IMG/VR virus record: IMGVR_UViG_3300025162_001474
Coordinates: 1 to 35,233 of that record
DNA: 35,233 nt
Source: a virus
Direction: 5' to 3' (one strand)
Of this stretch, positions 4,730 to 29,604 are shown piece after piece (positions within the stretch are counted from its first letter, which is position 1; every line of letters starts with the position of its first letter). The notes under the pieces were generated by a model that saw nothing but the letters and a program-made list of their open reading frames with translations, did no database searches and was not told the origin of the DNA. Position numbers and translations under genes: made by a program.

Positions 4730-4797
4730 ATAAAAAAATACAACAATCAAGAAAAAGGTAATAATAACCCTTCCGAAAGGACATAAAAAATTACAAA

Positions 4798-5190: not shown

Positions 5191-5199
5191 AGGAATGTT

Positions 5200-6225: not shown

Positions 6226-6379
6226 TGGACAGGCTGAGTTTCAATAGATAATTATTATAATGATAAACAAAAAAAAATATGTGATAACCAAATCGCCGAA
6301 CGCTTAACACACACTTGGTCATTGGCTGGCTGAAGTGAATTAGCTAGTTTTGCTCTTGCATTAATTTTTCTTATTCAAT

Positions 6380-6420
6380 CAATAAAGTCACTCCCAAGTG
6401 GCTTTATTGTTATTTTTTCT
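6380..6420 (+). terminator. intrinsic terminator, 12-bp stem
   Basis: CAATAAAGTCAC (6380-6391) pairs with GTGGCTTTATTG (6398-6409), eleven Watson-Crick pairs plus one G-T, around a six-base loop, followed by TATTTTTT. It would end transcription from the secreted-protein/HNH pair and insulate the defence operon. Confidence 0.8.
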
Positions 6421-6435
6421 CAGTAACTACAATTT

Positions 6436-6463
6436 TTACCCCGACTTACCCCGACTTACCCCA
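6436..6463. repeat. tandem decamer TTACCCCGAC, about 2.8 units
   Basis: TTACCCCGAC occurs at 6436 and 6446 and again, cut after TTACCCC, at 6456. The exact 10-base period places the units on nearly the same face of the helix. It may be a protein-binding site or the trace of a recombination site; nothing more can be said. Confidence 0.6.
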
Positions 6464-6600
6464 CTTTACAAATTCTAATTACAGGTAGAAAAAATGTCCT
6501 TTCCCTACCACCAAATTTCAGTCAATGATGTATGAAACCCCGGAATTTTCACTCTTAATTGACAAGTTTCAGTGTGTAGAAATACAAACTCAAAATCTTT

Positions 6601-6643
6601 TTTCACAAACATATAAAAATGTGAAATGAATTATGTAGTTTTG
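6601..6643 (+). promoter_or_regulatory. candidate promoter and operator of methyltransferase operon
   Basis: TAGTTTTG (6636-6643) fits the TAnnTTTG -7 box. Where the -33 element would lie there is an inverted repeat, TTTCACA (6601-6607) and TGTGAAA (6620-6626). A repressor bound there could block transcription. A second inverted repeat, TGGTTTGTA (6660-6668) and TACAAACCA (6679-6687), lies in the predicted 5' leader and could act as operator or hairpin. Confidence 0.45.
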
Positions 6644-6715
6644 TAGGTAATTAATGAATTGGTTTGTACTAAATATAATACAAACCATTCATTTTTTAAT
6701 CTAATTCAATCCTGC

Positions 6716-9403: not shown

Positions 9404-9409
9404 TAAGTA

Positions 9410-10279: not shown

Positions 10280-10289
10280 TACGGTTTTG

Positions 10290-10433
10290 GAGCATTGTTA
10301 TCGGAGTTGTCCGTTCGAAAGTGACGAAGAACGGTTGGAATATCTGTTCAAACTGTATGAACAAATGATAGAAGAGGAAAACGACAAGGGAACTTTGTTT
10401 GAAACAGAAAAGAAAAGTAAAAAGAAAAAATAA
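10290..10433 (+). pseudogene. duplicated 3' end of the methyltransferase gene
   Basis: These bases repeat the last part of the upstream methyltransferase gene (9261-9403) at a constant offset of 1030 bases with no indels. The block 10321-10384 is identical to 9291-9354 over 64 bases; the outer parts are diverged. Read in the matching frame it encodes CYRSCPFESDEERLEYLFKL and so on to a stop at 10431-10433, compared with CYRSRPFESDEERLEYLFKL in the intact gene; the C-terminal basic tails differ (ETEKKSKKKK versus AGEKKSQKKR). It has no start codon and no upstream part, so it is a remnant. It lies between the FRG gene and the DUF3800 gene, whose ATG follows two bases after the remnant's stop. 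The original order was therefore very likely methyltransferase directly followed by DUF3800. Confidence 0.9.
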
Positions 10434-10435
10434 CT

Positions 10436-11182
10436 ATGCAATATTATCTATTTTTGGACGAATGTGGCGATCAGAACTTGAGTAATTTCAATCCTGATTT
10501 TCCATTGTTTACACTTTGTGGCGTAATTGTGTCCGAAACTGAATATGCTGCCATTACTGAAAAAGTACTGGCACTCAAAAAAACACTGTGGAACGACAAA
10601 AAAATTATTTTGCATTCTCGCGATATTCGTAAATGTCAAAAGGGTTTTGAAGTGTTGTTCGATTTGGACAAAAAGAAATTCTTTTACGAAAGTATCAATT
10701 CCATACTTGGAGAAAGTAACTATCAAATAGTGTGTTGCAGTATTCTAAAAGAGCAATATATTCGCCGTTACGGAAAATTATCAGATGTTTATGCTATTTC
10801 GCTTTCATACATTATTGAGCGTACTGTTTTTCTGTTGGAAGGTTTAAAAAAGGACGGAGTAGAAGAAATTGAACTTCATGCCATTGCCGAACGTCGAGGA
10901 ACTAAAGAGGATAAAAGTTTACTGGATTATTACAATGAATTGTTAGATAGAGGCACTTATTTTGTAAACAACAAACGTATAAAATCGCTTTTCAAATCAT
11001 TTCAGTTTAAAATGAAGTCGGAAGATATAATCGGGTTGCAAATCTCAGATTTGGTGGCTTATCCTATTACACGTTATGTATTGGATAGCAAGGCTGTAAA
11101 TCCGGCTTATGAAGTAATTAAAGAGAAAATTTACACGCAAAATGGGAAAATGCATGGTCTTAAAATTCACCCGGCAGAATAA
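10436..11182 (+). CDS. DUF3800 protein, RNase H-like fold predicted
   Basis: 248 residues. The start YYLFLDECGDQNL (Asp8-Glu9, Asp12) followed by a strand FTLCGVIV is the signature of DUF3800, a family with an RNase H/RuvC-like fold in which the first Asp-Glu belongs to the acidic metal site. Further marks are ILHSRDIRK (about 58-66), an acidic strand EEIELHAIAERRG (about 142-154) and the C-terminal LQISDLVAYPITRYVL (about 201-216), whose Asp is a typical last acidic residue. DUF3800 genes commonly sit beside restriction and other defence genes; a nuclease role is suspected. The ATG lies two bases after the stop of the duplicated methyltransferase tail, which shows that it once followed the methyltransferase gene directly. 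A terminator follows 24 bases downstream, so it ends the first transcription unit. Confidence 0.8.
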   Translation: MQYYLFLDECGDQNLSNFNPDFPLFTLCGVIVSETEYAAITEKVLALKKTLWNDKKIILHSRDIRKCQKGFEVLFDLDKKKFFYESINSILGESNYQIVCCSILKEQYIRRYGKLSDVYAISLSYIIERTVFLLEGLKKDGVEEIELHAIAERRGTKEDKSLLDYYNELLDRGTYFVNNKRIKSLFKSFQFKMKSEDIIGLQISDLVAYPITRYVLDSKAVNPAYEVIKEKIYTQNGKMHGLKIHPAE

Positions 11183-11206
11183 CCTGAGTGTAAAATATGG
11201 ACAAAA

Positions 11207-11253
11207 AAAAGAGTTGTCGAAACAACCCTTTTCCGATTGGGGACACCCCGATC
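11207..11253 (+). terminator. terminator hairpin plus second hairpin
   Basis: AAAAGAGTTGT (11207-11217) pairs with ACAACCCTTTT (11222-11232) around the tetraloop CGAA, with A-runs and T-runs on either side, so it could work in both directions. A second hairpin, GATTGGGG (11235-11242) and CCCCGATC (11246-11253) with loop ACA, follows at once. Together they end the methyltransferase-FRG-DUF3800 unit. Confidence 0.7.
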
Positions 11254-11300
11254 CAGATATTTTAAACTGCATACACAGCTAAACTCTCTTATTTGTGCTG

Positions 11301-11345
11301 CAAAGATAGTGCATAGATTTTGAGAATGTATCTAATTTGATACAT
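11301..11345 (-). promoter_or_regulatory. 20-base palindromic operator beside a leftward -7 box
   Basis: ATGTATC (11326-11332) and GATACAT (11339-11345) form a perfect palindrome with a six-base centre, the size of a dimeric helix-turn-helix binding site. Eighteen bases to its left, on the opposite strand, TATCTTTG (complement of 11301-11308) matches the Bacteroidota -7 box, so the palindrome would cover the -33 region of a leftward promoter. No convincing leftward gene follows; an RNA is possible. Confidence 0.45.
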
Positions 11346-11415
11346 ATTTTGGTTAATAATGGTTAATAGGGTTGAATTGTATTGATTTTCAAAAAGAAAT
11401 AAAGGGGTATTAATG

Positions 11416-11629
11416 ATGAATACTGAAAAAATACATTCTTGATTATTTGTTGAAGTTCGACTCAGTTGTGAAAGAAGATTTTGAAAAAGTACTTTTAGAC
11501 AAACTACCAGATGTTTTAGACATTCCCCAAAAGAAAAATAAAATAAAGAATAACTTGCAATTACTTAGAAAACAGGGTTATATAACAGTAAAAGGGAAGA
11601 TGTGGCGAATGTCTAAACAAAAAAAATAG
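11416..11629 (+). pseudogene. small winged-helix ORF interrupted by a frameshift in an A run
   Basis: An ATG at 11416 opens a frame that stops after eight residues (MNTEKIHS). The overlapping frame from 11420 to 11629 continues without a stop and encodes DYLLKFDSVVKEDFEKVLL and KNNLQLLRKQGYITVKGK, ending WRMSKQKK. If one A of the six-A run at 11426-11431 were absent, a 70-residue protein starting MNTEKYILDYLLKF would result, resembling a small winged-helix DNA-binding domain with its wing at GYITVKGKMW. Alternatives are translation from TTG at 11447, slippage at the A run, or a sequencing error. It stops on the first of four TAGAC boxes ahead of the helicase gene, which would suit a local regulator. 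No family match is claimed. Confidence 0.45.
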
Positions 11630-11671
11630 ACATTCATTAGACGAACTTTAGACATTCTTTAGACGAGACAT
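11607..11671 (+). promoter_or_regulatory. array of TAGAC boxes spaced 11 bases apart
   Basis: TAGAC occurs at 11627, 11638, 11649 and 11660, exactly 11 bases apart. The 11-base units alternate TAGACATTCWT and TAGACGARMWW, giving a 22-base super-repeat, and a half unit GACATT follows at 11667. An inverted copy, GAATGTCTA at 11607-11615, pairs with TAGACATTC at 11627-11635. The array ends about 24 bases before the helicase ATG at 11695. Same-face spacing indicates cooperative binding of a regulator controlling the helicase unit. Confidence 0.7.
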
Positions 11672-11694
11672 TAACTTATAAACGATAAATAGCT

Positions 11695-13827
11695 ATGCCG
11701 GATTTAGTTCATGTTACCTACACCCAAACAGGGCAAAGCTCACAAACCAATCATTTTGGTATGCGTGAGATGCAGGAAAAGGCCTTTGAAGAAAGAGACG
11801 CACAGTATCTATTATTGAAAGCCCCACCGGCTTCCGGTAAATCACGCGCATTGATGTTTATTGCGTTGGATAAACTCATAAAACAAGAACTAAAAAAAGT
11901 AATAGTTGCCGTTCCGGAAAAATCAATCGGTGGTTCGTTTCGTGCTACCGACCTCAAAAGTCATGGTTTCTTTGCTGATTGGGATTTACACGACAATTAC
12001 AACCTATGTACACCCGGTAACGATGGGAGCAAAGGCAAAGTACAGGCTTTCCGTAATTTCATGGATAACGATGAAAAAATTCTGATTTGTACCCATGCCA
12101 CCTTGCGCTTTGCTTTTGAAGATTTGGACATATCAAAGTTCGACAATTGTCTGTTGGCCATTGATGAATTTCACCATGTATCCGCCGACGGTGATAGCAA
12201 GTTGGGAGAACTGTTGCGCCTGATTATGGAAAAATCAACGGCTCATATTGTAGCCATGACCGGCTCCTATTTTCGTGGAGATAGCGTACCAGTTCTATTA
12301 CCCGAGGACGAAGAAAAATTCACCAACGTTACATATACATATTATGAGCAACTAAACGGTTATACCTATCTGAAATCATTGGGTATCGGATATAATTTCT
12401 ATCAGGGAAATTACACTGAAGCCATTCTTGATGTATTAGATACGGATAAAAAAACGATATTACATATTCCAAATGTCAATTCCGGTGAATCACTCAAACG
12501 GAAATACGATGAGGTAAATTTTATCTTAGACGCAATTGGGGACGTGATAAAAGTTGATTCCGAAACAAAAGTAATCTATCTGAAACGTCACACGGATGGC
12601 AAAACCATTAAAGTAGCCGATTTGGTAAATGACAATTCGCGTGAACGTGATTTAATTGTTAGTTACTTGCGAGAAATGAAATCCGTTGACGATATGGATT
12701 TAATTATAGCATTGGGAATGGCGAAAGAAGGTTTCGACTGGCCCTGGTGCGAATATGCTTTGACCGTTGGTTATCGTGGTTCATTGACAGAAATAGTGCA
12801 AATAATTGGACGTTGCACCCGTGACAGCAATAATAAAACACACGCTCAATTTACAAATCTCATTGCTCAACCTGATGCAACAAATGACGACGTAAAGTTT
12901 GCTGTAAATAATATGTTGAAAGCAATTACAGCTTCACTTTTAATGGAACAGGTTTTAGCACCGAACTTTAATTTCAAACCTCGTTTCACACCTGAAGACA
13001 AAGCAGGTCCGGGCGAAATTTTGGTGAGAGGATATAAAGTCCCAAGTTCCAAACGGGTAAAAGATATTCTCAAATCGGATATAAACGATTTGAAAGCCAA
13101 TATATTAAAAGACAATAGCATTTTAGCAGCCATTCCCGGCAATATCGATGCCGAAGTGATAAACAAAGTGTTGATTAAGCAGGTTATTGAAAAAAAATAT
13201 CCGAACCTGAGCGAAGATGAAGTAGAAGAAGTTCGTCAATACGTGGTAATGGATTCTGTAATGAAAAACACCTTACAAATCAACGTGAAGGACCTTAAAA
13301 AGGCTATTGAAAACGATGAAAGCATTAAAAAAGCCATTGCAGACAACATGTCGAAAGAGGATATCAATACGCTGATTCCAAAAGTAATCAAAACTATCTA
13401 TCCGGAACTTTCCGATGACGAAGCAAATGCATTAAACAAAGTAAATATCAATACCAACATTATTGAAAGTACGGAAGCCCAAGCAGACAAACGATTTATC
13501 CGCATGGCAGGTCAATTTGTAAATATCGACGACATTCATATCGACCTGATAGATCAGGTCAACCCGTTCCAACGTGCTTATGAAATTCTTTCAAAATCGG
13601 TTACTCCGAAAGTTTTGAAAGTGATTCAAGATGTCATTGAAACTTCACGAATCAAAATGACTGAAGAGGAAGCTATAATTTATTACCCAGATAAAGTGGC
13701 TAAATTTATGAAAACCTTTGGTCGTGCTCCATATATAAAATCTGCCGATTTTAATGAGCGTAGAATGGCAGAAGCAATTTTGTTTTTGAAAGATTTAAAA
13801 CGTAGAAATCAAGCTAAAAATAATTAG
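11695..13827 (+). CDS. SF2 DEAD/DEAH-type helicase of restriction-like system
   Basis: 710 residues. Helicase motifs are in order: motif I APPASGKS (43-50), motif Ia VAVPEKS (71-77), motif Ic THATLRF (133-139), motif II DEFH (157-160), motif III MTGSY (188-192), and the second RecA lobe with EGFDWPWCEYAL and motif VI QIIGRCTR (369-376). This is the helicase/translocase type that accompanies restriction enzymes. The C-terminal 300 residues contain two similar acidic helical segments, each with a Y-P-x-L-S-x-D-E-x pattern (about residues 501-509 and 564-572), perhaps a scaffold for partner proteins. Its codon use and base composition resemble the methyltransferase flanks, DUF3800 and the GIY-YIG gene, unlike the A+T-rich FRG and TrlF genes. 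It starts the second transcription unit, behind the TAGAC array, and the GIY-YIG gene follows after 8 bases. Confidence 0.85.
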   Translation: MPDLVHVTYTQTGQSSQTNHFGMREMQEKAFEERDAQYLLLKAPPASGKSRALMFIALDKLIKQELKKVIVAVPEKSIGGSFRATDLKSHGFFADWDLHDNYNLCTPGNDGSKGKVQAFRNFMDNDEKILICTHATLRFAFEDLDISKFDNCLLAIDEFHHVSADGDSKLGELLRLIMEKSTAHIVAMTGSYFRGDSVPVLLPEDEEKFTNVTYTYYEQLNGYTYLKSLGIGYNFYQGNYTEAILDVLDTDKKTILHIPNVNSGESLKRKYDEVNFILDAIGDVIKVDSETKVIYLKRHTDGKTIKVADLVNDNSRERDLIVSYLREMKSVDDMDLIIALGMAKEGFDWPWCEYALTVGYRGSLTEIVQIIGRCTRDSNNKTHAQFTNLIAQPDATNDDVKFAVNNMLKAITASLLMEQVLAPNFNFKPRFTPEDKAGPGEILVRGYKVPSSKRVKDILKSDINDLKANILKDNSILAAIPGNIDAEVINKVLIKQVIEKKYPNLSEDEVEEVRQYVVMDSVMKNTLQINVKDLKKAIENDESIKKAIADNMSKEDINTLIPKVIKTIYPELSDDEANALNKVNINTNIIESTEAQADKRFIRMAGQFVNIDDIHIDLIDQVNPFQRAYEILSKSVTPKVLKVIQDVIETSRIKMTEEEAIIYYPDKVAKFMKTFGRAPYIKSADFNERRMAEAILFLKDLKRRNQAKNN

Positions 13828-13835
13828 ATTGTATA

Positions 13836-15017
13836 ATGTTGAATACTGAGAGGAAGAAAAAACTTCAGGATTTGTTTGATAACGACCCGTTGGGCTTATT
13901 AGAAGTTAAGCCCTTAGCAACCGTTAGAAACGAAGACAATATTCTTGTAAGCAAGTTTCAGGAGATAATTGATTTTTATCAACAAAATCAACGCTTACCC
14001 ATTGAAAACAATGGGGTAAATGAACACACGCTTTATTCTCGTCTATGCGATTACAGAGAAACCGAATCAAAAAGAAAGATACTGGAACAGTTCGACGAAT
14101 TCGGGTTATTAGTACCCGTTGAAAAAAAGATATTTACAATTGATGATATTTTGGAAGATGACCCGCTTGGATTATTAGACGAAGACGATATGGGTTTGTT
14201 TGATTTTGATTTGGTTCAACGTCCCGACGAAAGAGCAAGTGCCGATTTTGTAGCCAGACGTAAAGCCATACAAAATTACGAAAAATATGCACAGTTATTC
14301 AAAGATTGTCAACGTGATTTAAAGCAAGGAGATAGAAAACTTGTCAAATTTCATGAGAATCAAATTCAAGAAGGAGCTTTTTTTGTCCTTAATGGATTAT
14401 TGGTTTATGTTGATAAACTAATGGATATTACAGTTGATAAGTTTAGTAAAAGAGATGGAAGGACAAAACTGATATTTGAAAATGGCACTGAATCAAATAT
14501 GCTATTCAGGTCATTAGGTAAAGGCTTGTTTCAGAATGGACAAGGCATAACTTTTACCAATGAAGAAATGAATTCACAGTTTGAAAACAACTACAATAAT
14601 ATCAGTGATGAAGATAAAGAATCCGGCTTCATATACATATTAAAATCCAAGAGCAATAAACAAGAAATCAAGGATATAAAACACCTTTATAAAATTGGAT
14701 TCTCCACAACAACGGTGGAAGAGCGTATTAAGAATGCAGAACAAGAACCAACTTATTTAATGGCTGAGGTGCGCATTGTTATGACTTACAAGTGTTTCAA
14801 TATGAATACTCATAAACTTGAATCATTGTTGCACAATTTCTTTGGCAGCTCCTGTTTGAATGTCGATGTATTTGACAACCTTGGAAATCGTCATACACCA
14901 CGAGAATGGTTTATTGCTCCATTAGATATAATAGAACAAGCCGTTCATTTGATTATTTCCGGTGAGATTGTAAAGTATCGGTATGATGGGGAGAAAGAAG
15001 AAATTTTAATTAGGTAG
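13836..15017 (+). CDS. GIY-YIG nuclease-domain protein (T5orf172/MUG113-like)
   Basis: 393 residues. The C-terminal domain is GIY-YIG-like: GFIYIL (264-269), then LYKIGFS (284-290) and VEERIKNA with Arg297, followed by a helix with LESLLHNFF and a final REWF. This order is that of the T5orf172/MUG113 branch, in which GIY becomes F-I-Y and YIG becomes Y-K-I-G; the catalytic Tyr, the Arg and the late Glu (in KLESLLH) are visible. The N-terminal half has two copies of a DPLGLL motif (residues 16-21 and 109-114) inside acidic linkers, one before a helical module that ends RILEQFDEFG; these could be docking peptides for the helicase or methyltransferase. The gene is 8 bases behind the helicase. 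Since the methyltransferase lacks a visible E-x-K, this protein is the best candidate for the cutting subunit. Function is inferred from context. Confidence 0.75.
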   Translation: MLNTERKKKLQDLFDNDPLGLLEVKPLATVRNEDNILVSKFQEIIDFYQQNQRLPIENNGVNEHTLYSRLCDYRETESKRKILEQFDEFGLLVPVEKKIFTIDDILEDDPLGLLDEDDMGLFDFDLVQRPDERASADFVARRKAIQNYEKYAQLFKDCQRDLKQGDRKLVKFHENQIQEGAFFVLNGLLVYVDKLMDITVDKFSKRDGRTKLIFENGTESNMLFRSLGKGLFQNGQGITFTNEEMNSQFENNYNNISDEDKESGFIYILKSKSNKQEIKDIKHLYKIGFSTTTVEERIKNAEQEPTYLMAEVRIVMTYKCFNMNTHKLESLLHNFFGSSCLNVDVFDNLGNRHTPREWFIAPLDIIEQAVHLIISGEIVKYRYDGEKEEILIR

Positions 15018-15019
15018 AC

Positions 15020-15033
15020 TATCCAATTGGATA
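15020..15033. promoter_or_regulatory. perfect palindrome TATCCAATTGGATA
   Basis: A 14-base perfect palindrome beginning 3 bases after the GIY-YIG stop, 47 bases before the TrlF start. A second inverted repeat, TGATAA (15054-15059) and TTATCA (15073-15078), follows just before the TrlF ATG. Either could bind a regulator or form a weak hairpin that sets the level of TrlF expression. Confidence 0.45.
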
Positions 15034-15080
15034 TATTTAGTGGTTTGGTGTCATGATAAAAAAAAGAAAAACTTATCACA

Positions 15081-17222
15081 ATGAAAATAGATATTCACGT
15101 ACATACAAAGAAAGCCAAATCGGGTGACGCTGACACCAGAAATGTTGATGTAGACAAATTTGAGAGAATTATCAAATCAACTGAAGTAAAAATTATAGCG
15201 ATTACTAATCATAATCATTTTGATTTAGTGCAATACGAGCAATTTTCAGAAAGAATGGGTAACATTTGCCAAATTTGGCCTGGAATAGAACTTGACATAG
15301 TAGATAATGATAAGAGAGCTCATTTGATAGTTATAGTAAATCCAAAAAACCATTCAGAATTTAACAGAAAAGTCGCAAAGTTACTTTTGACCAAAACTCC
15401 AGATAATTTCACAATTACAATCGAAGATACTGTTGATAATTTTGACTCTTTAGACCCGATTTACATACCTCATTATTTTACGAAAAAGCCTAATTTAGGT
15501 GATGAAGGAGTCGAATTACTAATGAGTATAGTCAAAAATAAAAAGAGAGTATTGAAGGAAGCCACAAATTCAATCTCTGCTGGAATATACATAAGTCACG
15601 GACATGAGTCTATTTATGGATCTGACATTCATGATTGGGATAAATATTTAGTAGAATCTAAAGAGTTACCAGACTTAAGGTTACCTGTAGAAAGTTTTGA
15701 GCAGTTTTGTCTATTGCTTGAAAAAGACGATCATACAATTCAAACAATTCTTGATAAAAAATCAAAAGAACTAATACAAGTCACTCCATTTACTGTTGCT
15801 GAACAGATAAACCTTGAAATATATAACGACATAAATATAATTTTTGGGTCAAAAGGAACAGGAAAAACTGAGATACTAAAAGCATTATCTAAGTATTATA
15901 ATGGGAAAGGATATAGCACCTCCGTATATGAATCAAATTCAACTCACTTAAATGATGTGTATAATGTAAAAGGAGCTGATTTAGAAATTGTATTAGAGGA
16001 TTTAGGAATTGATAATTGTGAAGAAGAATTTCAGATAATTAGGGAATCGATTGAAGAGGAAATAACTAGTATTAGTAAATATCTACAGTATTTTTCTAAT
16101 GAGGCAACAAACAAGATTTCTCAGAAAATTGCACTAAAAAACTTTATAAGATTAGATGGTTCTCAAGCATCAAGAAAATTTGAAGAAATTAAAAGTGTAC
16201 TACTTCAATTTAGATCGTTTAATGAATCTATTGCTGATAATAATACTCTTGAAGAAACAATTGGCTTTGACTTATTTCTTGAACTTTTAGAATTAGTTGA
16301 TAAAATTTTAATAAAATTGAAATCTGAATCAGAAAAACGGTTTATTGATTCCAAAAGCATTTCAATGTTCAACTCATTAATTAAAGTGTTTGTTTCTGAA
16401 ATTTCAAAGAAAACTGGACAACCTGAGAAACCTATGAAAACAGGGTTCCAAGAATATGCAAGTAATAGAATAAAAATAGAAAGGACAATTACAAAAATTT
16501 TAGCAAATATCGACATGAACGTTGAACCATTTGTGGAATATGTAGGTGATTTGGGAGATAAAGGGAATCTTGAAAGTCAAACTAATATCCTAGTTCAAAA
16601 TGGTATAATAACAGATAGTAAGTTAACTACTGTATCTAGAGTTAATAAAATTCCACAGAAAGAAGTTGCCAAATCAATGAGAACTATTTCAAAATATGTT
16701 TATTATAATGATTTGTTTGAGAAAATTAGTGAACTGAAATCAATTGATGGTGGAGAAACAATTGAAAATATATATGATTTACTTCTTTTCAATAGGTATT
16801 TTGTTGTTGGAGGAAAAGAATATAACCCATCAAATGGAGAATCATCAATGATTCTTCTTCATAATGAGCTTAAACAAGATAAGGATATATATTTAATAGA
16901 TGAGCCAGAGAAAAGTCTTGGTAATGATTATATTAATGATGTTATTGTGCCTTTGTTGAAACAAAGAGCACGACAAGGGAAAAAAGTGATAATCGCAACT
17001 CATGATGCAAATATAGCAGTTAGAACTTTGCCATACAGTTCTACATACAGACAGCATGACTTAAATAATTATTTCACTTACATAGGCAATCCTTTTACTA
17101 ATAATTTAGTTTGTATCACTGGCGAAAAGCCTAATTTAGATTGGAAAAACATAAGTATGAAAACACTCGAAGGTGGTAAAGACGCTTTCGGAGAAAGAGG
17201 TAAAATATATGGAAAATTTTAA
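15081..17222 (+). CDS. TrlF-type PHP phosphoesterase fused to SMC-like ATPase
   Basis: 713 residues. The N-terminal PHP domain shows DIHVHT (His6, His8), the NHNH block (43-46), PGIE (Glu70), His81, HYF (His131) and a late SDIHDW (Asp182, His184), so the metal ligands look complete. An ABC/SMC-like ATPase follows: Walker A GSKGTGKT (256-263), a long helical and coiled-coil insert (about 310-560), a signature-like PSNGESSMILL segment (about 583-593), Walker B YLIDEP (604-609) with its Glu, and a switch histidine in IATHDAN (His641). This is the architecture NCBI calls the TrlF family. In related defence ATPases the ATPase senses the infection and the attached enzyme acts; whether the PHP part hydrolyses a nucleotide, RNA or DNA is unknown. 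It lies 63 bases behind the GIY-YIG gene and overlaps a small gene by 14 bases. The whole gene is A+T-rich compared with the helicase, suggesting separate acquisition. Confidence 0.85.
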   Translation: MKIDIHVHTKKAKSGDADTRNVDVDKFERIIKSTEVKIIAITNHNHFDLVQYEQFSERMGNICQIWPGIELDIVDNDKRAHLIVIVNPKNHSEFNRKVAKLLLTKTPDNFTITIEDTVDNFDSLDPIYIPHYFTKKPNLGDEGVELLMSIVKNKKRVLKEATNSISAGIYISHGHESIYGSDIHDWDKYLVESKELPDLRLPVESFEQFCLLLEKDDHTIQTILDKKSKELIQVTPFTVAEQINLEIYNDINIIFGSKGTGKTEILKALSKYYNGKGYSTSVYESNSTHLNDVYNVKGADLEIVLEDLGIDNCEEEFQIIRESIEEEITSISKYLQYFSNEATNKISQKIALKNFIRLDGSQASRKFEEIKSVLLQFRSFNESIADNNTLEETIGFDLFLELLELVDKILIKLKSESEKRFIDSKSISMFNSLIKVFVSEISKKTGQPEKPMKTGFQEYASNRIKIERTITKILANIDMNVEPFVEYVGDLGDKGNLESQTNILVQNGIITDSKLTTVSRVNKIPQKEVAKSMRTISKYVYYNDLFEKISELKSIDGGETIENIYDLLLFNRYFVVGGKEYNPSNGESSMILLHNELKQDKDIYLIDEPEKSLGNDYINDVIVPLLKQRARQGKKVIIATHDANIAVRTLPYSSTYRQHDLNNYFTYIGNPFTNNLVCITGEKPNLDWKNISMKTLEGGKDAFGERGKIYGKF

Positions 17223-17499
17223 CGCAGAAATAAAAAGAGAAGACCAAAGAACAACTTTGGTCTTGAAGGGTAAGACTGAAAGTTATGAACTTATTCTCAC
17301 TGAAGACAATCCGAATGCTGTCAAGTCTATATTTAATAGACTTTTACAGGAATTAAAAAAGGGGGCTTTCTCGTTCGTTTTAATAGACGAAAAAGAGGAT
17401 TTATACCAGCAAATTAGTAAAGAGTATATAACACAACTGAATTCTGAATTGCTTAGTGTTTACGAGGAATTGAAAGATTATGAATTATTAAGCGAATAG
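17209..17499 (+). CDS. small acidic protein overlapping the TrlF gene
   Basis: 96 residues from the ATG at 17209, which lies inside the last codons of the TrlF gene (14-base overlap), so translation is coupled. The frame is open further upstream within TrlF, but a start there is less likely. The first part looks like a beta hairpin (TTLVLKGKTESYELILTED), followed by helices (NAVKSIFNRLLQELKKG, LYQQISKEYITQLNSELLSV). No family is recognised. The overlap and lack of any other gene in the unit suggest a partner, inhibitor or antitoxin-like subunit for TrlF. It is the last gene of the second defence unit; no strong terminator is seen directly after it. Confidence 0.65.
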   Translation: MENFNAEIKREDQRTTLVLKGKTESYELILTEDNPNAVKSIFNRLLQELKKGAFSFVLIDEKEDLYQQISKEYITQLNSELLSVYEELKDYELLSE

Positions 17500-17509
17500 A
17501 AAACATGAC

Positions 17510-17705
17510 TGCATAACACCATGCCTATGTCCTAGCTGGAGTGATTTTGCAAACCGTGTCAAATTAAAAATAGCAAACAACTCTGCTCCAGTTGGTGAAA
17601 AAACTCGAGCAACTTATATTTATCAATAGATTGGCTATACCCAATAATCCACAGCTACTGTTAATGAAATGTCCCCCTGTTGGATATGTTTAGGCATTAG
17701 ATGCA
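17510..17705. repeat. imperfect inverted repeat flanking the TrlF/DUF4365 gap
   Basis: TGCAT plus ATGCCTA (17510-17514 and 17521-17527) is matched in inverse order by TAGGCAT plus TGCA (17691-17697 and 17702-17705). Inside, CTGGAG (17536-17541) pairs with CTCCAG (17586-17591). The nested order recalls a folded recombination site, or the ends of a small non-coding element, and lies exactly between two gene groups. No gene is present in this gap of about 220 bases. Confidence 0.45.
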
Positions 17706-17723
17706 AGCTTAAAAAAAACAAGA

Positions 17724-18722
17724 ATGAGTGATTTACCAAATAGAAATAGAACAATAAACGAAGCAACTGGAATGAGGGTTGTTGCGCAATATGTACAAGA
17801 GTTTTGGGAATGCGGATGGCAACCATTTGACGCAAGGAATGATAAAGGAATTGATGGGTTAATTCTTATGAGAAAGAAAAGCATAGACCTTGGCGTAAAA
17901 ATTAATGTTCAGGTGAAATGCGGACCGAAATATATTTCAAGTGAAAATAAAGATGAAATTAGGATTTCAATCGATAATGAAATAGGTTTAATTGAACATA
18001 TTGAATATTGGAAGAAGCAAATTGAACCTGCAATTCTCGTTTTTGTAAATCCATCAAAACCATTACGTGATAAAAGTGGGAAAATTTTAAAAGATGATAA
18101 AAGTAAAATTATATGGAAAGAAAGTCGACTCAATTCAAAAGCTTGGTGGGTAGATTTAAAAAGCGAAAATTTGAGAGTTGAAAATTCAAGAACGTTAATT
18201 TCAATTCCCAAGAAGAATGTATTTGGTGAGCATAGTAAAGGCGAATTTCTAAAATTAACTAAGCCTATATTATCAAATAAACACTTACCACTTATTGAAC
18301 TTAATAGTGATAGCAAAAAATTATTAAATTCAATGAAATTGAAAGATGATGCCCGTGAATTTTACAAACAATGGAAAAATGGAAATTCTATCTTATGTAA
18401 AGCATTAAACAAAGATATTAGAGTTTCAAAAACTGGTTGGAATCATATTCTTTCTGCCAAAAGAGGTAGTGAAAGAAGAATAGGTTCATTAAAACTTTTA
18501 GGTGTTGCAAAACAAATAATTAATGAAATAGAAGAGGGAAAGTATTTTTTACTAAATCAAACCGAAGACCTCTTTGAAATTGAACAAAAATTTGGAATAA
18601 GAGCAAGGTATATTGATAGATTAATGGGAGAGCAGGTGGTTCAAGTAATTGTATTGAGAAAATTAAATACAATGAACAGAAATGAGAAACTATGGTTTTA
18701 CAGTGTTCATTACAGAAGATAG
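17724..18722 (+). CDS. DUF4365 nuclease-like protein with BECR-like C-terminus
   Basis: 332 residues. The N-terminal domain has the DUF4365 pattern: a glutamate in TINEATGMRVV, then DARNDKGIDGLIL (Asp44) and NVQVKCG (Gln63-Val-Lys65), a PD-(D/E)XK-like core in which Q-x-K replaces E-x-K, as is usual for this family. A long basic linker follows. The C-terminal ~120 residues contain SKTGWNHILSAKRGSERR (His241, Arg247), a helix SLKLLGVAKQIINEI, and final strands VVQVIVLRKLN and LWFYSVHYRR. This order (GW-x-H, R, L-x-L-L-x-x-A-x-x-I-I, then strands ending F-Y-S-V) resembles the BECR fold of Barnase/EndoU/ColicinE5/RelE-type nucleases. If right, the protein joins a DNA-directed and an RNA-directed nuclease. 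It stands alone; no immunity gene is seen directly after it. DUF4365 is fairly sure, BECR is inference. Confidence 0.65.
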   Translation: MSDLPNRNRTINEATGMRVVAQYVQEFWECGWQPFDARNDKGIDGLILMRKKSIDLGVKINVQVKCGPKYISSENKDEIRISIDNEIGLIEHIEYWKKQIEPAILVFVNPSKPLRDKSGKILKDDKSKIIWKESRLNSKAWWVDLKSENLRVENSRTLISIPKKNVFGEHSKGEFLKLTKPILSNKHLPLIELNSDSKKLLNSMKLKDDAREFYKQWKNGNSILCKALNKDIRVSKTGWNHILSAKRGSERRIGSLKLLGVAKQIINEIEEGKYFLLNQTEDLFEIEQKFGIRARYIDRLMGEQVVQVIVLRKLNTMNRNEKLWFYSVHYRR

Positions 18723-18845
18723 ATGCATTACCCTTGTTTTATTCACCTTTATAAGCGGTTTACTTGCGTTTAAAACGCTAAAAATAGCCGGCCACACATC
18801 TATCTTGCTGAAATGAGATGCAAATGTAATGAAAATAATTTAAAA

Positions 18846-18862
18846 GCCAGCCCGAGGCTGGC
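18846..18862 (-). terminator. hairpin GCCAGCC/GGCTGGC, leftward terminator
   Basis: GCCAGCC (18846-18852) pairs with GGCTGGC (18856-18862) around a CGA loop. Read on the minus strand it is followed by TTTTAAATTATTTT, as for an intrinsic terminator; on the plus strand no T run follows. It lies 40 bases after the stop of the possible leftward ORF. Confidence 0.55.
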
Positions 18863-18901
18863 ACTGTCTGGCGCACATTAGTTAAGAGTGCCAATACAAA
18901 G

Positions 18902-19087
18902 CTATTCCGCTATTAGGTCTGCAATAAAACCCTGAATTTTTAAAACGCAATTAGTCCCTAAGGTCCCCATTGTCAACCTAAAACATTTTTTTTCGTTTTT
19001 ACAAGGCAATAAACACTTAATAATGTCATTTATACATGGCATTGCCGAATATCTTACACAACGTATTCTGGATCCTTCAGTGAACAT
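18902..19087 (-). CDS. possible small cysteine-containing protein, leftward
   Basis: A 61-residue ORF in an otherwise empty region, beginning ATG at 19087 and ending at 18902. It has four to five cysteines (RCVRYSAMPCIND, CLLPCKNEKKCF) and ends GFIADLIAE. Support is limited to its isolation, the lack of any competing + strand gene and a leftward terminator after it. No family is recognised and no clear promoter was found. It could equally be chance or the tail of a decayed gene. Confidence 0.25.
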   Translation of the reverse strand: MFTEGSRIRCVRYSAMPCINDIIKCLLPCKNEKKCFRLTMGTLGTNCVLKIQGFIADLIAE

Positions 19088-19155
19088 ATTTTATTAAAGT
19101 GCCAAAAAAACATATATTCAATGAAGATGTGCGTAGTTCTGGCATAACTGTATTT

Positions 19156-19163
19156 TATCTTTG
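19156..19163 (+). promoter_or_regulatory. Bacteroidota -7 promoter box TATCTTTG
   Basis: Exact TATCTTTG 94 bases before the ATG at 19257, giving a long A+T-rich leader of about 85 bases. It would drive the membrane protein, PD-(D/E)XK and beta-repeat genes as one unit that ends at the terminator near 21121. Confidence 0.6.
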
Positions 19164-19256
19164 CATCATAAAATAAATCAGTACCAATGCATTGTAAATT
19201 TTAAATTATTTTGTTTCTTTGTTGTTGTAAGAATTTAGCCTAATTAATAGAATGTT

Positions 19257-19649
19257 ATGAAACTAAGTTTTAATGATAAATGCTGGGTGGTTGCCAATAT
19301 TAAAAGAGTTCTTGCCCCTCCTTCTGCAATTCTTTTGTTTGCTGTTTTTTATTCCGCAGAGCAAGCAAAGAAAGAACTTAATACACATAACATATTTGGA
19401 TTTTGGAGCATTTTGATATTAATTATTATGGGACTAATTGCTATCAAATATGCATATCAAATAGCAAAATTTGCATCTGCAAATTTTGATCAGGTAGTTT
19501 CCCGAAGAACAAAATGGAAATCAAGTAATGTGGAGCTACACGAAATGAAATACCGCTTTGTTCTTGAAACCTTCGGTTGGGCTTTGTTTAGTCTGTTTAC
19601 CCCTCTATTCTCAATCGTGTGGTTTGTGATATATATTGTAAAATTTTAA
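19257..19649 (+). CDS. small integral membrane protein, unknown
   Basis: 130 residues with about three hydrophobic segments: a weaker one near 20-33 (APPSAILLFAVFY), a strong one at 48-67 (FWSILILIIMGLIAIKYAYQ) and a C-terminal one at 107-128 (WALFSLFTPLFSIVWFVIYI). Between the second and third is a basic cytoplasmic-looking loop (VVSRRTKWKSSN). No family is recognised. It is first in a unit with a PD-(D/E)XK protein 10 bases downstream, which may couple membrane and nuclease functions. In defence systems small membrane proteins next to nucleases often act as sensors or effectors; here that is only a suggestion. Confidence 0.6.
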   Translation: MKLSFNDKCWVVANIKRVLAPPSAILLFAVFYSAEQAKKELNTHNIFGFWSILILIIMGLIAIKYAYQIAKFASANFDQVVSRRTKWKSSNVELHEMKYRFVLETFGWALFSLFTPLFSIVWFVIYIVKF

Positions 19650-19659
19650 TATATAAGAT

Positions 19660-20769
19660 ATGGAAGAATATGAAAAACTATTCAAAGAAATAAGCAATTT
19701 AAAAGAGAAACATAAAAAAGAAGACCTTTTTAATGGTTTTATGTCCTTTGGTGTTGGTGCTGATGAAACAAAACATTCAAAGTTTATTGGTAATCTTTTA
19801 AATCCAAAAGGCTCTCATAAGCAAGGTGATAAATTCTTAAATTTATTCTTGAAACATCTTGAAATTACAGATTTCAACTTCGATGGCTTAAATGTGGAGT
19901 GCGAAAAGTATGCTGATGGAAGGTATATAGATATAGCTATATGGAACAAAACACAGTTTATAGTAATTGAAAACAAGTTTTGGGCAAGTGATCAAGACAA
20001 CCAATTAAGAGACTATTATAATTTTGCTTTAACGCACACAAAAAACAAGTTTGAGAATGTCTTTATGCTTTATCTTACTCCCTATGGAAGACAACCGTTT
20101 GATAATTCCTTTTCTGTGGGATTATTGCCTGAAGGAATCAAAGTACTTCCCAGAGAAAAAGTAAAATGTATTAGTTACGAAAAGCACGTTTTAGAATGGC
20201 TTGAAGCTTGTATTGACAGCTTTGATGCCAATGATATTATTAGGCTCAATATTATCCTTGAAATGTATATTGAATTAATAAGAAATGTAATTAATAGAGA
20301 CAAATATATGGAAGAAATTATGAGTAAATTTTTGAGTAATTCAGAAAATATGAAACTAGCGATTGATATCGTAATGAGTTTCCAGCAAAGAAACTTTTTA
20401 GGTTCGGTTGATACTAGAGAATTTATATTAAAGCAAATTGACGCTGCTATTTATAGGCACAATGATCCAAAATTGGATTTTGATCAAGATCCTGATAATG
20501 ATATTTTATATTTTACACTTGAAATAGTTAATGAAAATCCAAGTATAGAAAATACAAAAATTGGTGATATATGTTTTTCTGGAGTACACATCTATGGTCA
20601 GAAACTCAATGGAGAAGAGGTTAAAGATAATCAGATTGTATGTAACGATATAAACGATATAAACCTATACAGCATATTGACAAATAATATTGATGGAATT
20701 GATAAATGGCTAAAAAGTATTGTAAATGAGTTATTAAACAAAGGAGAAGCTGAAAACCAAACAGAGTAG
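19660..20769 (+). CDS. PD-(D/E)XK nuclease superfamily protein (PDDEXK_4 type)
   Basis: 369 residues. After an N-terminal helix, the segment ADETKHSKFIGNLLNPKGSH matches the family's pre-core motif. The core shows GRYIDIAIW (Asp91), FIVIENKFWA (Glu104, Lys106) and DQDNQLRDYY (Asp111-Gln112, Gln115), so D, E-x-K and DQ-x-QL are all intact. The C-terminal half (about 210-369) is acidic and unassigned. It is a distant relative of the protein at 3321: both share the H-S-x-I/F-L/I-G-x-L-L and E-N-K plus DQ-x-QL blocks but differ elsewhere, so they are not recent duplicates. It sits 10 bases after the membrane protein and 23 bases before the beta-repeat protein. It is probably a DNase effector of a small defence unit; the specificity is unknown. 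Confidence 0.75.
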   Translation: MEEYEKLFKEISNLKEKHKKEDLFNGFMSFGVGADETKHSKFIGNLLNPKGSHKQGDKFLNLFLKHLEITDFNFDGLNVECEKYADGRYIDIAIWNKTQFIVIENKFWASDQDNQLRDYYNFALTHTKNKFENVFMLYLTPYGRQPFDNSFSVGLLPEGIKVLPREKVKCISYEKHVLEWLEACIDSFDANDIIRLNIILEMYIELIRNVINRDKYMEEIMSKFLSNSENMKLAIDIVMSFQQRNFLGSVDTREFILKQIDAAIYRHNDPKLDFDQDPDNDILYFTLEIVNENPSIENTKIGDICFSGVHIYGQKLNGEEVKDNQIVCNDINDINLYSILTNNIDGIDKWLKSIVNELLNKGEAENQTE

Positions 20770-26367: not shown

Positions 26368-27207
26368 ATGCTAATAACCACCGTTTCCGATTTTCTGAAA
26401 TCCATTCCTACAGCACAAGGCACGGAATGGGCAGCCATTGAACCATTTGTAAAAGCAGCCGATAGGCATACAAAATCCACCTTGACAGGTGTTGATTTAT
26501 ATAATTACATTGAAGGAATTACCTCCAATACCAATTTATTGCAAGATGAACTTCGCAATATCATTGCGTACAAAGCCTACAGAAATGCAATACCTTTTGT
26601 TGATTTGATCCAAACTCAAAACGGTTTTGGAGTTGTGAGTAATGCCAACATTGCACCCGCCAGTAAAGAGCGTGTGGAAAGATTGATAGCACAATGCGAA
26701 CAACAACTTGACACTGCAACCGATATGCTGATTTTGCAAATTTCAGCAGTACCGGCAGCACTGGCCGAATGGACCAAGTTTGGAGGTTTTGAAGAACTGA
26801 CAAATAGCATTTTTCAAACCGGAATTGATTTTTGCAAGTATACAAAATCTGAAAACTTGAAACGAGAAGCATTTTTGGCAGCCAAAAATGACCTTCTTTC
26901 GTTTCAATACTCAGAAATTGCAGAAGTAATAAGTATAGCTTTTATGGATGAACTTGTAAGCCAAGTCCGTACCAACGGATTGACTTTGCCAAATACTAAA
27001 ATTGTACGGAAACTAAAACCTATTTTAGGACTTTTGACTCAGCATAAAGAAGTGGAAGCAGAGGAACTGTTGGGGCAATTGGCAAATTTGCTGGATAACA
27101 ATCTTTCAAATTACGCTTCTTATGCCGGCAGTTCCGAATACGCACTTAAAATTGCAGCAAAGTACCAGAATAAACAAACCGATAGCACTTTCTTTTTTGG
27201 AATATAG
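26368..27207 (+). CDS. DUF6712-like phage connector-type protein
   Basis: 279 residues, mostly helical, with LKSIPTAQGTEWAAIEPFVKAA, DELRNIIAYKAYRNAIPFVDLI and VERLIAQCEQQLDTATDMLIL. Its size, composition and place directly after the portal match the DUF6712 proteins of Bacteroidota prophages, thought to be head-tail connector or head-completion parts. No signal or membrane segment. It ends 4 bases before the first copy of a palindromic repeat that separates it from the next gene. Confidence 0.6.
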   Translation: MLITTVSDFLKSIPTAQGTEWAAIEPFVKAADRHTKSTLTGVDLYNYIEGITSNTNLLQDELRNIIAYKAYRNAIPFVDLIQTQNGFGVVSNANIAPASKERVERLIAQCEQQLDTATDMLILQISAVPAALAEWTKFGGFEELTNSIFQTGIDFCKYTKSENLKREAFLAAKNDLLSFQYSEIAEVISIAFMDELVSQVRTNGLTLPNTKIVRKLKPILGLLTQHKEVEAEELLGQLANLLDNNLSNYASYAGSSEYALKIAAKYQNKQTDSTFFFGI

Positions 27208-27211
27208 TGAA

Positions 27212-27304
27212 CCCCAAACCCCTAAAGGGGCTTAAAGACCAAGTTTATGACAAAAAACAAAGCAGCCGAAACTAATCTCAGTCCCCCTTCAGGGGCTAGG
27301 GGTC
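27212..27304. repeat. palindromic repeat copy 1 (CCCCAAACCCCTAAAGGGG type)
   Basis: The left arm CCCCAAACCCCTAAAGGGG starts at 27212 and an inverted, diverged right arm, GTCCCCCTTCAGGGGCTAG, starts at 27281. A second copy is at 28026-28096. Such paired arms built from CCCCTAAAGGGG are a common intergenic repeat in Bacteroidota. The right arm lies inside the coding sequence of the next gene. Confidence 0.75.
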
Positions 27305-28050
27305 AAATAAATCTAATAATACCAAAACGGTACTCCGAAATGAGCAAAGAGCAGACGAACTTTGTCTGTTTATTGCTCAGTAGGAATGAGTCGGAAGAAA
27401 CAATCTGGACAAAATGTTTTATTCGATTTGCAGGTATTAAACCATTGACGGCAGATGAAAATAGCTATTACTTTGTGCATAGGGGCACAAAAAAATTATT
27501 TTCGCTTGCCTACCAAGAAGTAAATTACTTCAGCAAAATGCTGAAATTTACAACCCGGGATTATACAGGGATAAAACCAATATCCACAATAAAAGGCTGT
27601 AAGTCATGCGACCAGCTTTTAAGGGATATAGATTTTGGAACGTATTTAGAAATTGAAAATTTCTATCAGGCTTATCTATTTACCAAAGAGGAAAAATACA
27701 TAAGCCGATTAATGGCAACACTTTATACAAAAAAGGGAAAAAGAAAGCAGAATTTTGATACATGCACACCCACCGAAAAGCTATGGACAATTATGTGGAT
27801 TGTGGGCATTAAAAGCTATTTCTCCCGAAAATTCAGCTACCTTTTTGAGAGAACAGCACCAACGGAACAGGACGAAGCACCAACCGCACCCGATATGTAT
27901 TCCATTATTCAAAACCAGGTACGCGCCCTTACAGATGGCGACATTACCAAACGGGAAAAGGTTTTGAAATCAAATACATGGGATGCATTGGATGAATTGA
28001 ACCAAAAGGTAAAAGAAAGTAGGATGCCCCAAACCCCTAAAGGGGCTTAA
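27247..28050 (+). CDS. prophage protein whose ends are built from repeat arms
   Basis: 267 residues if started at the ATG at 27247; a shorter form from the ATG at 27340 (MSKEQTNFVCLLLS) is possible. Residues about 11-19 (LSPPSGARG) are encoded by the right arm of the repeat, and the C-terminal RMPQTPKGA plus the stop are encoded by the left arm of the second repeat. The native protein therefore seems to begin near INLIIPKRYSEMSKEQ, similar to phage proteins that start with a K-x-W/Y-x-E-M/L-x-x-E-Q motif, and to have lost its original ends. The middle contains a CKSCDQLLRD segment and a tryptophan-rich CTPTEKLWTIMWIVG part. The function is unknown; the position after the connector suggests a head-tail or tail-assembly role. 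Confidence 0.65.
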   Translation: MTKNKAAETNLSPPSGARGQINLIIPKRYSEMSKEQTNFVCLLLSRNESEETIWTKCFIRFAGIKPLTADENSYYFVHRGTKKLFSLAYQEVNYFSKMLKFTTRDYTGIKPISTIKGCKSCDQLLRDIDFGTYLEIENFYQAYLFTKEEKYISRLMATLYTKKGKRKQNFDTCTPTEKLWTIMWIVGIKSYFSRKFSYLFERTAPTEQDEAPTAPDMYSIIQNQVRALTDGDITKREKVLKSNTWDALDELNQKVKESRMPQTPKGA

Positions 28051-28096
28051 AAAATATTACTAACCAACTCTTATTCCCCTTTAGGGGTTAGGGGCC
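28026..28096. repeat. palindromic repeat copy 2 (CCCCAAACCCCTAAAGGGG type)
   Basis: The left arm begins at 28026 and the inverted right arm (TTCCCCTTTAGGGGTTAGG, from 28074) ends near 28096, with about 23 bases between them. The left arm supplies the last codons and the TAA of the preceding gene. It can form a hairpin of nearly 25 bp in mRNA and might act as a terminator or stabilise upstream message. Confidence 0.8.
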
Positions 28097-28108: not shown

Positions 28109-28591
28109 ATGTTCAACTTCGTAAATTATTTTGAAACCCTCAACGGAAAATTAAAGACTACAAAGGATGCCTATCATTTTTGCCGTGTGTCGGGAATAAA
28201 TGGATTGGAAGATGTGTTGGCCAATTACATGACTAAAAATGCCTTCTTAGCTGTTGATGATAGCGATGATGGAATGACTATTCGCCTTGGCGGTGGCTAT
28301 TTCAACCGTAGAAGCATCGTGATTTATGTCCTCAAAAAATACAAAATTACCGATATGTCAGAAAGAGAAATGGTCCTTTCAGAAACCAGAGCTATCCGAA
28401 ATAGCTTAATCAGTAAGTTATTGGTTGATGCAAACAGAAATGCTGAGGGATTGAATTACCTGAACAAGGAACGCATTCCGTACCACGAAGTACCAGGCTA
28501 TTTTGCTGCAGGAACAACCGGAATCTATTTTATCATAACCATTGACGAACCAGTAAATTTAGCGTATAATGCCAACGAATGGACAACCTGA
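28109..28591 (+). CDS. prophage tail/head-completion type protein
   Basis: 160 residues, mixed alpha/beta: NAFLAVDDSDDGMTIRLGGG, a helix RSIVIYVLKKYKITDM, LISKLLVDANRNAEGLNYL, and the end FFIITIDE-like strand (GIYFIITIDEPVNLAYNANE). The size and the position directly before a HK97 gp10-like gene fit a tail-completion or neck protein, but no family is recognised. It starts 12 bases after the second palindromic repeat and overlaps the next gene by 23 bases, so translation is coupled. Confidence 0.55.
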   Translation: MFNFVNYFETLNGKLKTTKDAYHFCRVSGINGLEDVLANYMTKNAFLAVDDSDDGMTIRLGGGYFNRRSIVIYVLKKYKITDMSEREMVLSETRAIRNSLISKLLVDANRNAEGLNYLNKERIPYHEVPGYFAAGTTGIYFIITIDEPVNLAYNANEWTT

Positions 28592-28952
28592 CAAACGAAA
28601 GTATTACGATGCATGGGCGAAAATGATGATCACTATCTGGGAAGACAAAATCATTAAACTCAATGTTCGGGACACTGGCGCATTGCTTTCCTCTTTTGCT
28701 ACGCATGTTGAAGCAGCTGCCAATGGTGAAGTCGCAAAAATTGTACACACCTACAATTATTATGGGCGAATGGTGGATATGGGCGTGGGTAGGGGAGTCA
28801 GCAAAGCCGACAGTGGTGAGGGAAGTGGAAGACGAGCAAAACCGTGGTACAACAAATCTTATTACCATTCCGTAAAAGTCCTTTCCGAAAAAACAGCCGA
28901 ACTGTACGGAGAACAATTTCAAACTATACTATTTGAGACACTCAATTTCTGA
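28569..28952 (+). CDS. HK97 gp10-like tail-completion protein
   Basis: 127 residues. Features are a basic start PDKRKYYDAWAKMMITIWED, a DTGALLSSF motif and a conserved HTYNYYGRMVDMGVGRG segment followed by KPWYNKSYYHSVKVL. The D-T-G-x-L motif and the Y-Y-G-x-x-V/M-D-M-G-V-G loop are typical of gp10-like minor tail proteins of Bacteroidota prophages, which join head and tail. It overlaps the previous gene by 23 bases. Its TGA stop (28950-28952) lies inside a terminator hairpin, a compact arrangement. Confidence 0.65.
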   Translation: MPTNGQPDKRKYYDAWAKMMITIWEDKIIKLNVRDTGALLSSFATHVEAAANGEVAKIVHTYNYYGRMVDMGVGRGVSKADSGEGSGRRAKPWYNKSYYHSVKVLSEKTAELYGEQFQTILFETLNF

Positions 28953-28966
28953 GTGTCTTTTTTTTT
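28936..28966 (+). terminator. intrinsic terminator, AGACACTCA/TGAGTGTCT
   Basis: A perfect 9-bp stem (28936-28944 with 28950-28958) with a five-base loop and a run of nine Ts. It would end or attenuate transcription in the middle of the prophage late region, so the downstream genes may have their own promoter or depend on antitermination. Confidence 0.85.
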
Positions 28967-29007
28967 GCCTTCAAAAACCAATTCATTTGTATTTTAAACA
29001 GCAAAAC

Positions 29008-29604
29008 ATGGGAAAATTAGAAGAAGCACAGATATTATGGAATGCTATTGGAACTGAAACAGAACCTGATGCCAATACCACTACAAGAGTCAGAAATGCA
29101 GCGACCAAAATAATTGATTTCATTTCCGATCTTGTAAACGTAGTATCGACGAAAGTTGACAAAGTAACCGGAAAAGCCTTATCAACTAATGATTATAGTA
29201 ATACAGAAAAAGCCGAAGTGGCTAAAGTTGCAGACAAAGTGGATAAAATTGCCGGAAAGAGTTTATCTACTAATGATTATAGCAATGTAGCCAAAGCCGA
29301 AGTTGCAAAAGTCACAGACAAAGTAGATAAGATTGCCGGGAAAGGATTGTCAACAAATGATTTTAGCAATGATGCCAAAGCGGAAGTGGCTAAAATAGCT
29401 GATAAAGTAAATACGGACTTCTTTAATTCTACTATAGAAGATGAATCTGCTGAAAGGTCTTCAGGCGATACTGCACTTCAAGATGAAATTAATGTTATTG
29501 ACGGACAACTTGGGAATATAAAATCCTTTATCAATCAGTTTCTAATCACCGAAACAGGCGAATTAATTCTGGATATAAATAACAATATAATAGTAACTCT
29601 TTAA
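29008..29604 (+). CDS. fibre-like prophage protein with three 28-residue repeats
   Basis: 198 residues from the ATG at 29008; the longer frame to 28933 would read through the terminator. After a helical start (EEAQILWNAIGTETEPDANT), three tandem 28-residue units occur (about 49-132), each with VDK-x-x-GK-x-LSTND-[YF]-SN followed by KAEVAKV. This V-D-K-x-x-G-K-x-L-S-T-N-D motif is widespread in trimeric tail-fibre and baseplate proteins, where it caps coiled-coil segments. The C-terminus is helical and ends LITETGELILDINNNIIVTL, a likely trimerisation or attachment part. The copies are close enough at the DNA level (84-base unit) that the copy number could change by recombination. Likely a short tail fibre or connector. 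Confidence 0.65.
   Translation: MGKLEEAQILWNAIGTETEPDANTTTRVRNAATKIIDFISDLVNVVSTKVDKVTGKALSTNDYSNTEKAEVAKVADKVDKIAGKSLSTNDYSNVAKAEVAKVTDKVDKIAGKGLSTNDFSNDAKAEVAKIADKVNTDFFNSTIEDESAERSSGDTALQDEINVIDGQLGNIKSFINQFLITETGELILDINNNIIVTL

Follow-up and report, generated by a model that had tools for sequence, protein, structure and literature searches.

The locus studied here raises the question of how both ends of a gene in a packed phage operon can come to be made of a repeated sequence. The window, that is the whole 35,233-nt stretch analysed (positions 1 to 35,233 of IMG/VR record IMGVR_UViG_3300025162_001474), contains the exact 19-mer CCCCAAACCCCTAAAGGGG at 27212–27230 and 28027–28045, with inverted partners at 27284–27302 (3 mismatches) and 28076–28094 (1 mismatch). 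The chance expectation for these arms was 0.00 over 100 shuffles. The direct repeat reaches 25 nt (CCCCAAACCCCTAAAGGGGCTTAAA), the extended repeat of copy 1 covering 27212–27236. The initial annotation described two copies of a palindromic repeat flanking one gene. The flanking was borne out, but each copy consists of two inverted arms around a spacer (53 and 30 nt) rather than a single palindrome. The features are arranged as follows.

26368–27207, plus strand: gene A (PF20459, DUF6712), upstream neighbour of gene B
27212–27230, plus strand: copy 1 left arm (CCCCAAACCCCTAAAGGGG), between the gene A stop and the gene B start
27231–27283, plus strand: copy 1 spacer, 53 nt, holding the gene B start codon (27247–27249) and codons 2–12
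27284–27302, minus strand: copy 1 right (inverted) arm, in-frame residues 13–19 (PPSGARG) of gene B
27247–28050, plus strand: gene B, 267 aa, a conserved phage operon protein with both termini element-derived
28027–28045, plus strand: copy 2 left arm, gene B residues 261–267
28046–28075, plus strand: copy 2 spacer, 30 nt
28076–28094, minus strand: right (inverted) arm of copy 2, followed after 14 nt by gene C
28109–28591, plus strand: gene C, 160 aa, downstream neighbour of gene B

The translation of gene B runs MTKNKAAETNLSPPSGARGQINL...KESRMPQTPKGA*. As first noted, the right arm of copy 1 codes near the N-terminus, but its core accounts only for PPSGARG, and the coding spacer adds the start codon at 27247. 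The left arm of copy 2 likewise encodes the C-terminus, its core corresponding to PQTPKG plus the first base of A; the stop codon TAA (28048–28050), previously assigned to the arm, sits past the core in its CTTAA extension. Gene C begins MFNFVNYF where close homologues have MWNAVNYF. Gene B has no match in Pfam or PHROG, the window gave 0 Rfam matches at gathering threshold, and its segment 24900–29700 has no blastn match among 50,697 phage records. Elsewhere in the window, the left half (3321–20769) carries restriction/defence-like genes: two PDDEXK_4 genes (3321–4592 and 19660–20769), an HNH gene (5200–6225), an MmeI-type enzyme (6659–9403), an FRG domain (9410–10279), DUF3800 (10436–11182), a DEAD/ResIII helicase (11695–13827) and T5orf172/MUG113 (13836–15017). 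The FRG-domain gene is flanked by a 163-nt direct repeat (82%) at 9241–9403 and 10271–10433. The ORF at 28933–29604 contains three 84-nt tandem coding repeats (VDKVTGKALSTNDYSN...) at 29152–29413.

Twenty-seven distinct gene B loci, obtained from scans of viral contigs and genome contigs, were compared. The 5′ end is readable in 24 of them, L035, L038 and L039 being cut at a contig end. Thirteen of these are arm-free with a native start (M..INL), such as METINLTAPKNY. Three (L017, L005 and L030) have a solo left arm together with a native-like start, and eight have an element-encoded N-terminus: that of the window's phage (L015), MRLFKKFRTNSYHPLGVRG in the group L018/L019/L020/L037, MRLFRRNKEINTNSSSPLGVRG in L023 and MRFGRKKENKSNFSSPLGARG in L026/L027. 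At the 3′ end, 5/27 loci finish in an arm, with TPKGA* in L015 and MQTPNP* in L018, L019, L020 and L037; relatives at 91% identity terminate KESNQLLANSN* or KESKQLLANSK*. Since arm-free homologues have other termini, the native ends of gene B were replaced. This agrees with the proposal of the initial annotation that the repeats had changed both termini; homologues sharing the same termini without the repeat would have spoken against it, and the 13/24 native, arm-free 5′ ends do not. Closely related phages differ in the presence of elements: in L004 a complete one lies directly 5′ of the gene A start, where the window and L005 have none. In L007 a single left arm is read in frame inside the gene A homologue (DUF6712; 4555–4600, APKGDVRG). 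Solo left arms are present at junction 1 in L004, L005 and L030, so that the events there do not amount to one clean insertion.

The repeat is not confined to the phage. Gene B occurs at 100% in contig 108 of the metagenome-assembled genome (MAG) "uncultured Bacteroidales bacterium, bin-1918" (G001, 4 Mb), whose first 20 kb correspond to window positions 28378–8379; the copy 1 element is found there as well (locus L109). As G001 is a MAG, binning and the common repeat are what tie the phage to the host. The genome-wide count proposed with the initial annotation gave 102 exact matches to CCCCNNNCCCCTNWAGGGG in this MAG and 0 to the reversed pattern which, together with the shuffles of the window, excludes a chance origin. 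The repeat is thus a host-genome repeat common to host and phage and not a phage feature; its genome-wide distribution in the host rules out a phage-specific regulatory site. The arm pattern was also counted in a phylum sample of 395 genomes, where it is rare (11/395), and in 61 genomes of the family of G001, where it occurs in 18, the highest counts being those of G397 (104; one 3,685,504-bp contig), G001 (102) and G430 (94). The 54 loci fetched around arm matches in G001 hold 45 left–right pairs (spacers of 30–127 nt) and 35 solo arms. Most of the copies examined in G101, G216, G263 and G365 represent a relative of higher G+C content (CCCCCTTCAGGGGGCTGGGGG), in which spacer starts are scarce (examples are L315, L316, L325 and L326). 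The element family very probably dwells in high copy in a Bacteroidales group related to Paludibacter and in the phages of that group, a confidence that applies to the takeover explanation given below as a whole. Two further observations concern individual loci. A related arm of the CCCCC type marks the beginning of two ORFs that by eye resemble hisF, in L313 (G216) and L325 (G263), from two genomes of the phylum sample, and L234 (G430 C14, 238500–242577) is a local array of at least 8 elements with near-identical spacers.

The arms (CCCCYAACCCCTAAAGGGG ... CCCCTTTAGGGGTTAGGGG) are inverted around an A-rich variable spacer of about 30–130 nt. An alignment of 104 elements gave the arm consensus CCCCTAACCCCTAAAGGGG, which lacks a GTAG or CGTC tag at the palindrome foot. 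Folding of four elements paired the two arms in every case, which places the start codon in the loop. With REPINs the element shares two inverted REP-like palindromes with a spacer, as in the 45 pairs from 54 loci, and a high, dispersed copy number near gene ends; it has the terminal inverted repeats of a MITE (DDE transposon) and, as with the Rickettsia elements, an in-frame palindrome inside genes of conserved proteins. Spacer interiors are weakly alike, with a mean identity after the ATG of 0.473 compared to 0.431 for shuffled sequences. In 25/104 elements, 8 of these in one tandem array, an ATG lies 30–54 nt before an arm with no gene fused to it. A test of whether the element strongly conserves the ATG gave weak support.

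The arms prefer gene ends. A long-ORF stop falls in the range −40 to +60 relative to the outer edge in 51/112, 25/78 and 13/52 arms, compared to 66/2160, 59/1200 and 11/400 random positions in the same loci. In G001, ORFs of at least 60 codons enter arms in 22 cases, some of them antisense and spurious; the frame read is that of TPNP* or alike in 11, PLTPKGE in 8 and the third frame in 3.

Gene starts are found on the opposite side. Each of the 45 paired G001 elements was read in both directions, giving 90 orientations, 29 of which continue in frame as an ORF of 100 codons or more. An in-frame spacer ATG is present in 18 of these 29, in every case 11–16 codons before the arm, and a spacer mini-ORF in 4/54 orientations facing no gene. 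When solo arms are included, 20 host genes of G001 start in the spacer and read through the arm in frame, among them trpB, trpE, trpG, leuC, nadA, murI, rsmH, pstA, pstB and ilvD. The lists of such genes drop two short or antisense ORFs (L079 minus and L099 minus), and the host counts omit the window's own phage gene (L109). Seven more cases come from G397, where L226 and L230 look spurious, and eight from G430, with spacer ATGs 13–16 codons before the arm. All 20 G001 proteins match known families. For the 10 scanned against NCBIfam, the match begins at residues 19–36, past the leader, and at positions 1–8 of the gene's own profile (residue 26 to position 1 for TrpB, 25 to 2 for TrpG, 20 to 1 for MurI, 24 to 3 for LeuC and 30 to 2 for PstB). 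The leaders, of about 20 residues, consist of M, an N/K-rich stretch, TN and then SPLGVRG or VPLQGLGV. Three arm frames are used (PLGVRG, PLQGLGV and PFRGWG), and the PLQGLGV frame requires TTCAGG instead of TTTAGG, since TAG must be avoided. If translation starts in the element, TrpB may begin (M)NKEKDMQNETNSNSPLGAGG and NifE (M)KNIKTNIINDTNFNSPLGAGG.

The same genes exist with and without the element. A leader precedes trpG in G001 and G430. The remaining 27 loci whose upstream sequence could be read lack the arm, among them that of G397, whose 93% identical trpG begins with the native MKILVFDNYD. The leader of trpE is likewise present in G001 and G430, with the native MKLFVHSKK in G397; G001 TrpE has TTGAAACTA in place of the native ATGAAACTA. 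All three genomes carry the leader at trpB. There the arm of G397 reads CCT TTA GGA GCT GGA GGC, and its palindrome is broken; the changes relative to G001 (GGG to GGA and GGT to GGC) are silent in frame. Among nif genes, named by eye, nifB and nifV have the leader in G430 and are native in G397, and nifE has it in both. Finally, the leaders of nadA and pstB in G001 correspond to sites lacking the arm in 9/9 and 6/6 relatives, respectively. We infer from these filled and empty pairs an order of events in which the element inserts before the start, takes it over, and the old start is lost; the repeat would then decay while the protein is kept.

Taken as a whole, a REPIN/MITE-like palindromic element very probably takes over the start and stop codons of the genes that it borders, both ends of gene B included. 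On the upstream side, the previous gene would read into the left arm, which, as is visible in the sequence, supplies or adjoins its stop codon. On the downstream side, insertion would occur just 5′ of the native start or at it. Where the spacer offers an in-frame ATG, translation would proceed from there through the right arm and add an N-terminal leader of about 20 residues. The native start would then be dispensable and decay, a step suggested by intermediate states in which both starts coexist, a near-cognate TTG persists, the start has gone, or silent changes have eroded the arm. For gene B of the window, copy 1 would have taken over the start and copy 2 the end. A host enzyme would presumably mobilise the element.

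Whether the spacer ATG is the true start bears on a further account, in which the arms are ordinary 5′ untranslated repeats and translation begins downstream; PMC3733652 argues this for many N-terminal REPs. Some fused genes do keep an ATG, GTG or TTG at most 20 codons past the arm, in places just past it, as in L125 (ATG) and TrpE (TTG), so that not every case is a complete takeover. However, in 13 of 20 G001 spacer-ATG genes (a set that counts the window's phage gene and drops the two short or antisense ORFs) there is no ATG, GTG or TTG in the first 10 codons after the arm, yet family similarity begins within a few residues. In gene B, a start at the next Met (M32) would remove five invariant residues (N22, L23, P26, Y29 and E31). 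An annotation effect is thus highly improbable, and the absence of a usable native start points to the spacer ATG as the one used. Exchange between phage and host genes, with the arms as homologous patches and the altered termini as by-products of recombination, would explain why diverged phages (the window and the L007 lineage) carry elements at the same junctions, at both ends of gene B, and why DNA adjoining some elements is also replaced. The gene bodies flanking filled and empty sites are nevertheless about 90% alike, for which insertion is simpler than exchange, and we regard a recombination seam as unlikely.

A bolder version of the takeover is that a sub-family of the element itself carries the initiation leader, the ATG and the N-terminal peptide, so that insertion hooks a gene onto a portable start. 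The fixed position of the ATG (18/18 within 11–16 codons of the arm in G001, 13–16 in G430), the similar leaders on unrelated genes (MNKENIQNETNFNSPLG, MNKENIHNKTNLVPLQG and MIDKQENIQNNTRSNSPLG) and a likeness above all shuffles in the 24 nt on either side of the ATG are in its favour. The excess identity around the ATG is small, however (0.473 versus 0.431; 0.370 versus 0.348), the scarcity of mini-ORFs in the 54 orientations facing no gene is unexpected for an intrinsic start, and the fixed spacing could also come from a need to hold the ATG clear of both hairpins. We consider this version doubtful. Because the spacer interior is weakly conserved, takeover of whatever ATG the spacer offers is kept as the main reading.

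A candidate RAYT-type mobiliser was sought with PF01797 in G001, G002, G397, G430, G435, G365, G216 and G263, with 7 matches in G001, 4 in G397 and 3 in G430. Arms on both sides of a Y1 transposase were found at 0 of 25 loci (7 of G001 and 18 of G397, G430, G365, G216 and G263). One arm lies about 150 nt 3′ of the transposase gene in L280, and L283 and L073 have an arm pair within 1.5 kb. In L071 (G001, 1438–2999), a RAYT-like gene ends VGTGRDLS, a peptide that recurs in a neighbouring ORF; this suggests that the gene belongs with another, second coding repeat family of G001.

The preferred takeover reading suggests a way for a repeat to spread into densely coding DNA, including phage operons: it would replace the borders of genes and leave the genes themselves unbroken. 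Takeover of start codons, and N-terminal innovation driven by repeats, can be tested directly on the filled and empty pairs of trpG, trpE, nadA, nifB, nifV and pstB. Through the repeat that they share, the phage record is linked to a host group. More tentatively, the mobile hairpin might act as a portable gene-border cassette that terminates the preceding gene and equips the following one with a start codon and N-terminal leader, sparing both when it inserts into a packed operon. The genome would then start many biosynthetic genes from repeat codons, and phages sharing the host would acquire the cassette in their structural operons.

Coding palindromes as such are known already, in the Rickettsia palindromic elements (RPEs) and in GTAG and CGTC REPs. 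A literature search with little reach into subscription journals found no description of this family or of start-codon replacement by it, and start replacement by a non-GTAG family looks new. REPINs and REP doublets (BIME-type, RAYT) have the same inverted arms, variable spacer, high copy number, gene-end preference and solo arms. GTAG REPs often provide the stop codon TAG, and both GTAG and CGTC REPs occur at N-termini (PMC3733652), many of these being thought untranslated, while Rickettsia proteins with an N-terminal RPE-1 are expressed (PMC3733652). In contrast to REPINs of the two super-families (PMC3733652), the arms described here carry neither a GTAG nor a CGTC tag, the spacer houses gene start codons, and none of the 25 loci has an arm-flanked RAYT. 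The TnpA-REP subclass 2.6 of Bacteroidetes, from the same phylum, has "atypical" flanking structures with genomic copies elsewhere (PMC6006769); no such gene is flanked by CCCC arms in the 25 loci, and we treat the link as a lead. Fusions of RPEs and RUs to genes have been reviewed (PMC2229807, PMC2759123). RPE-1, RPE-4 and RPE-6 are, like the present element, read in frame in conserved genes, N-terminus included (PMC3733652, PMC2229807). Going by their description, the element differs from them in replacing the native start and ending upstream genes, and in residing in another phylum and in phages. The enterobacterial RU-1 (ERIC), RU-2 and RU-3 are likewise small and mobile repeats, and their open frames are joined to genes (PMC2759123); they differ in sequence and host, and here the arms and spacer end one gene and start the next. 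Being without GTAG or CGTC tags, present in Bacteroidales and their phages, and replacing native starts, the family is therefore judged a novel variation on coding palindromes.
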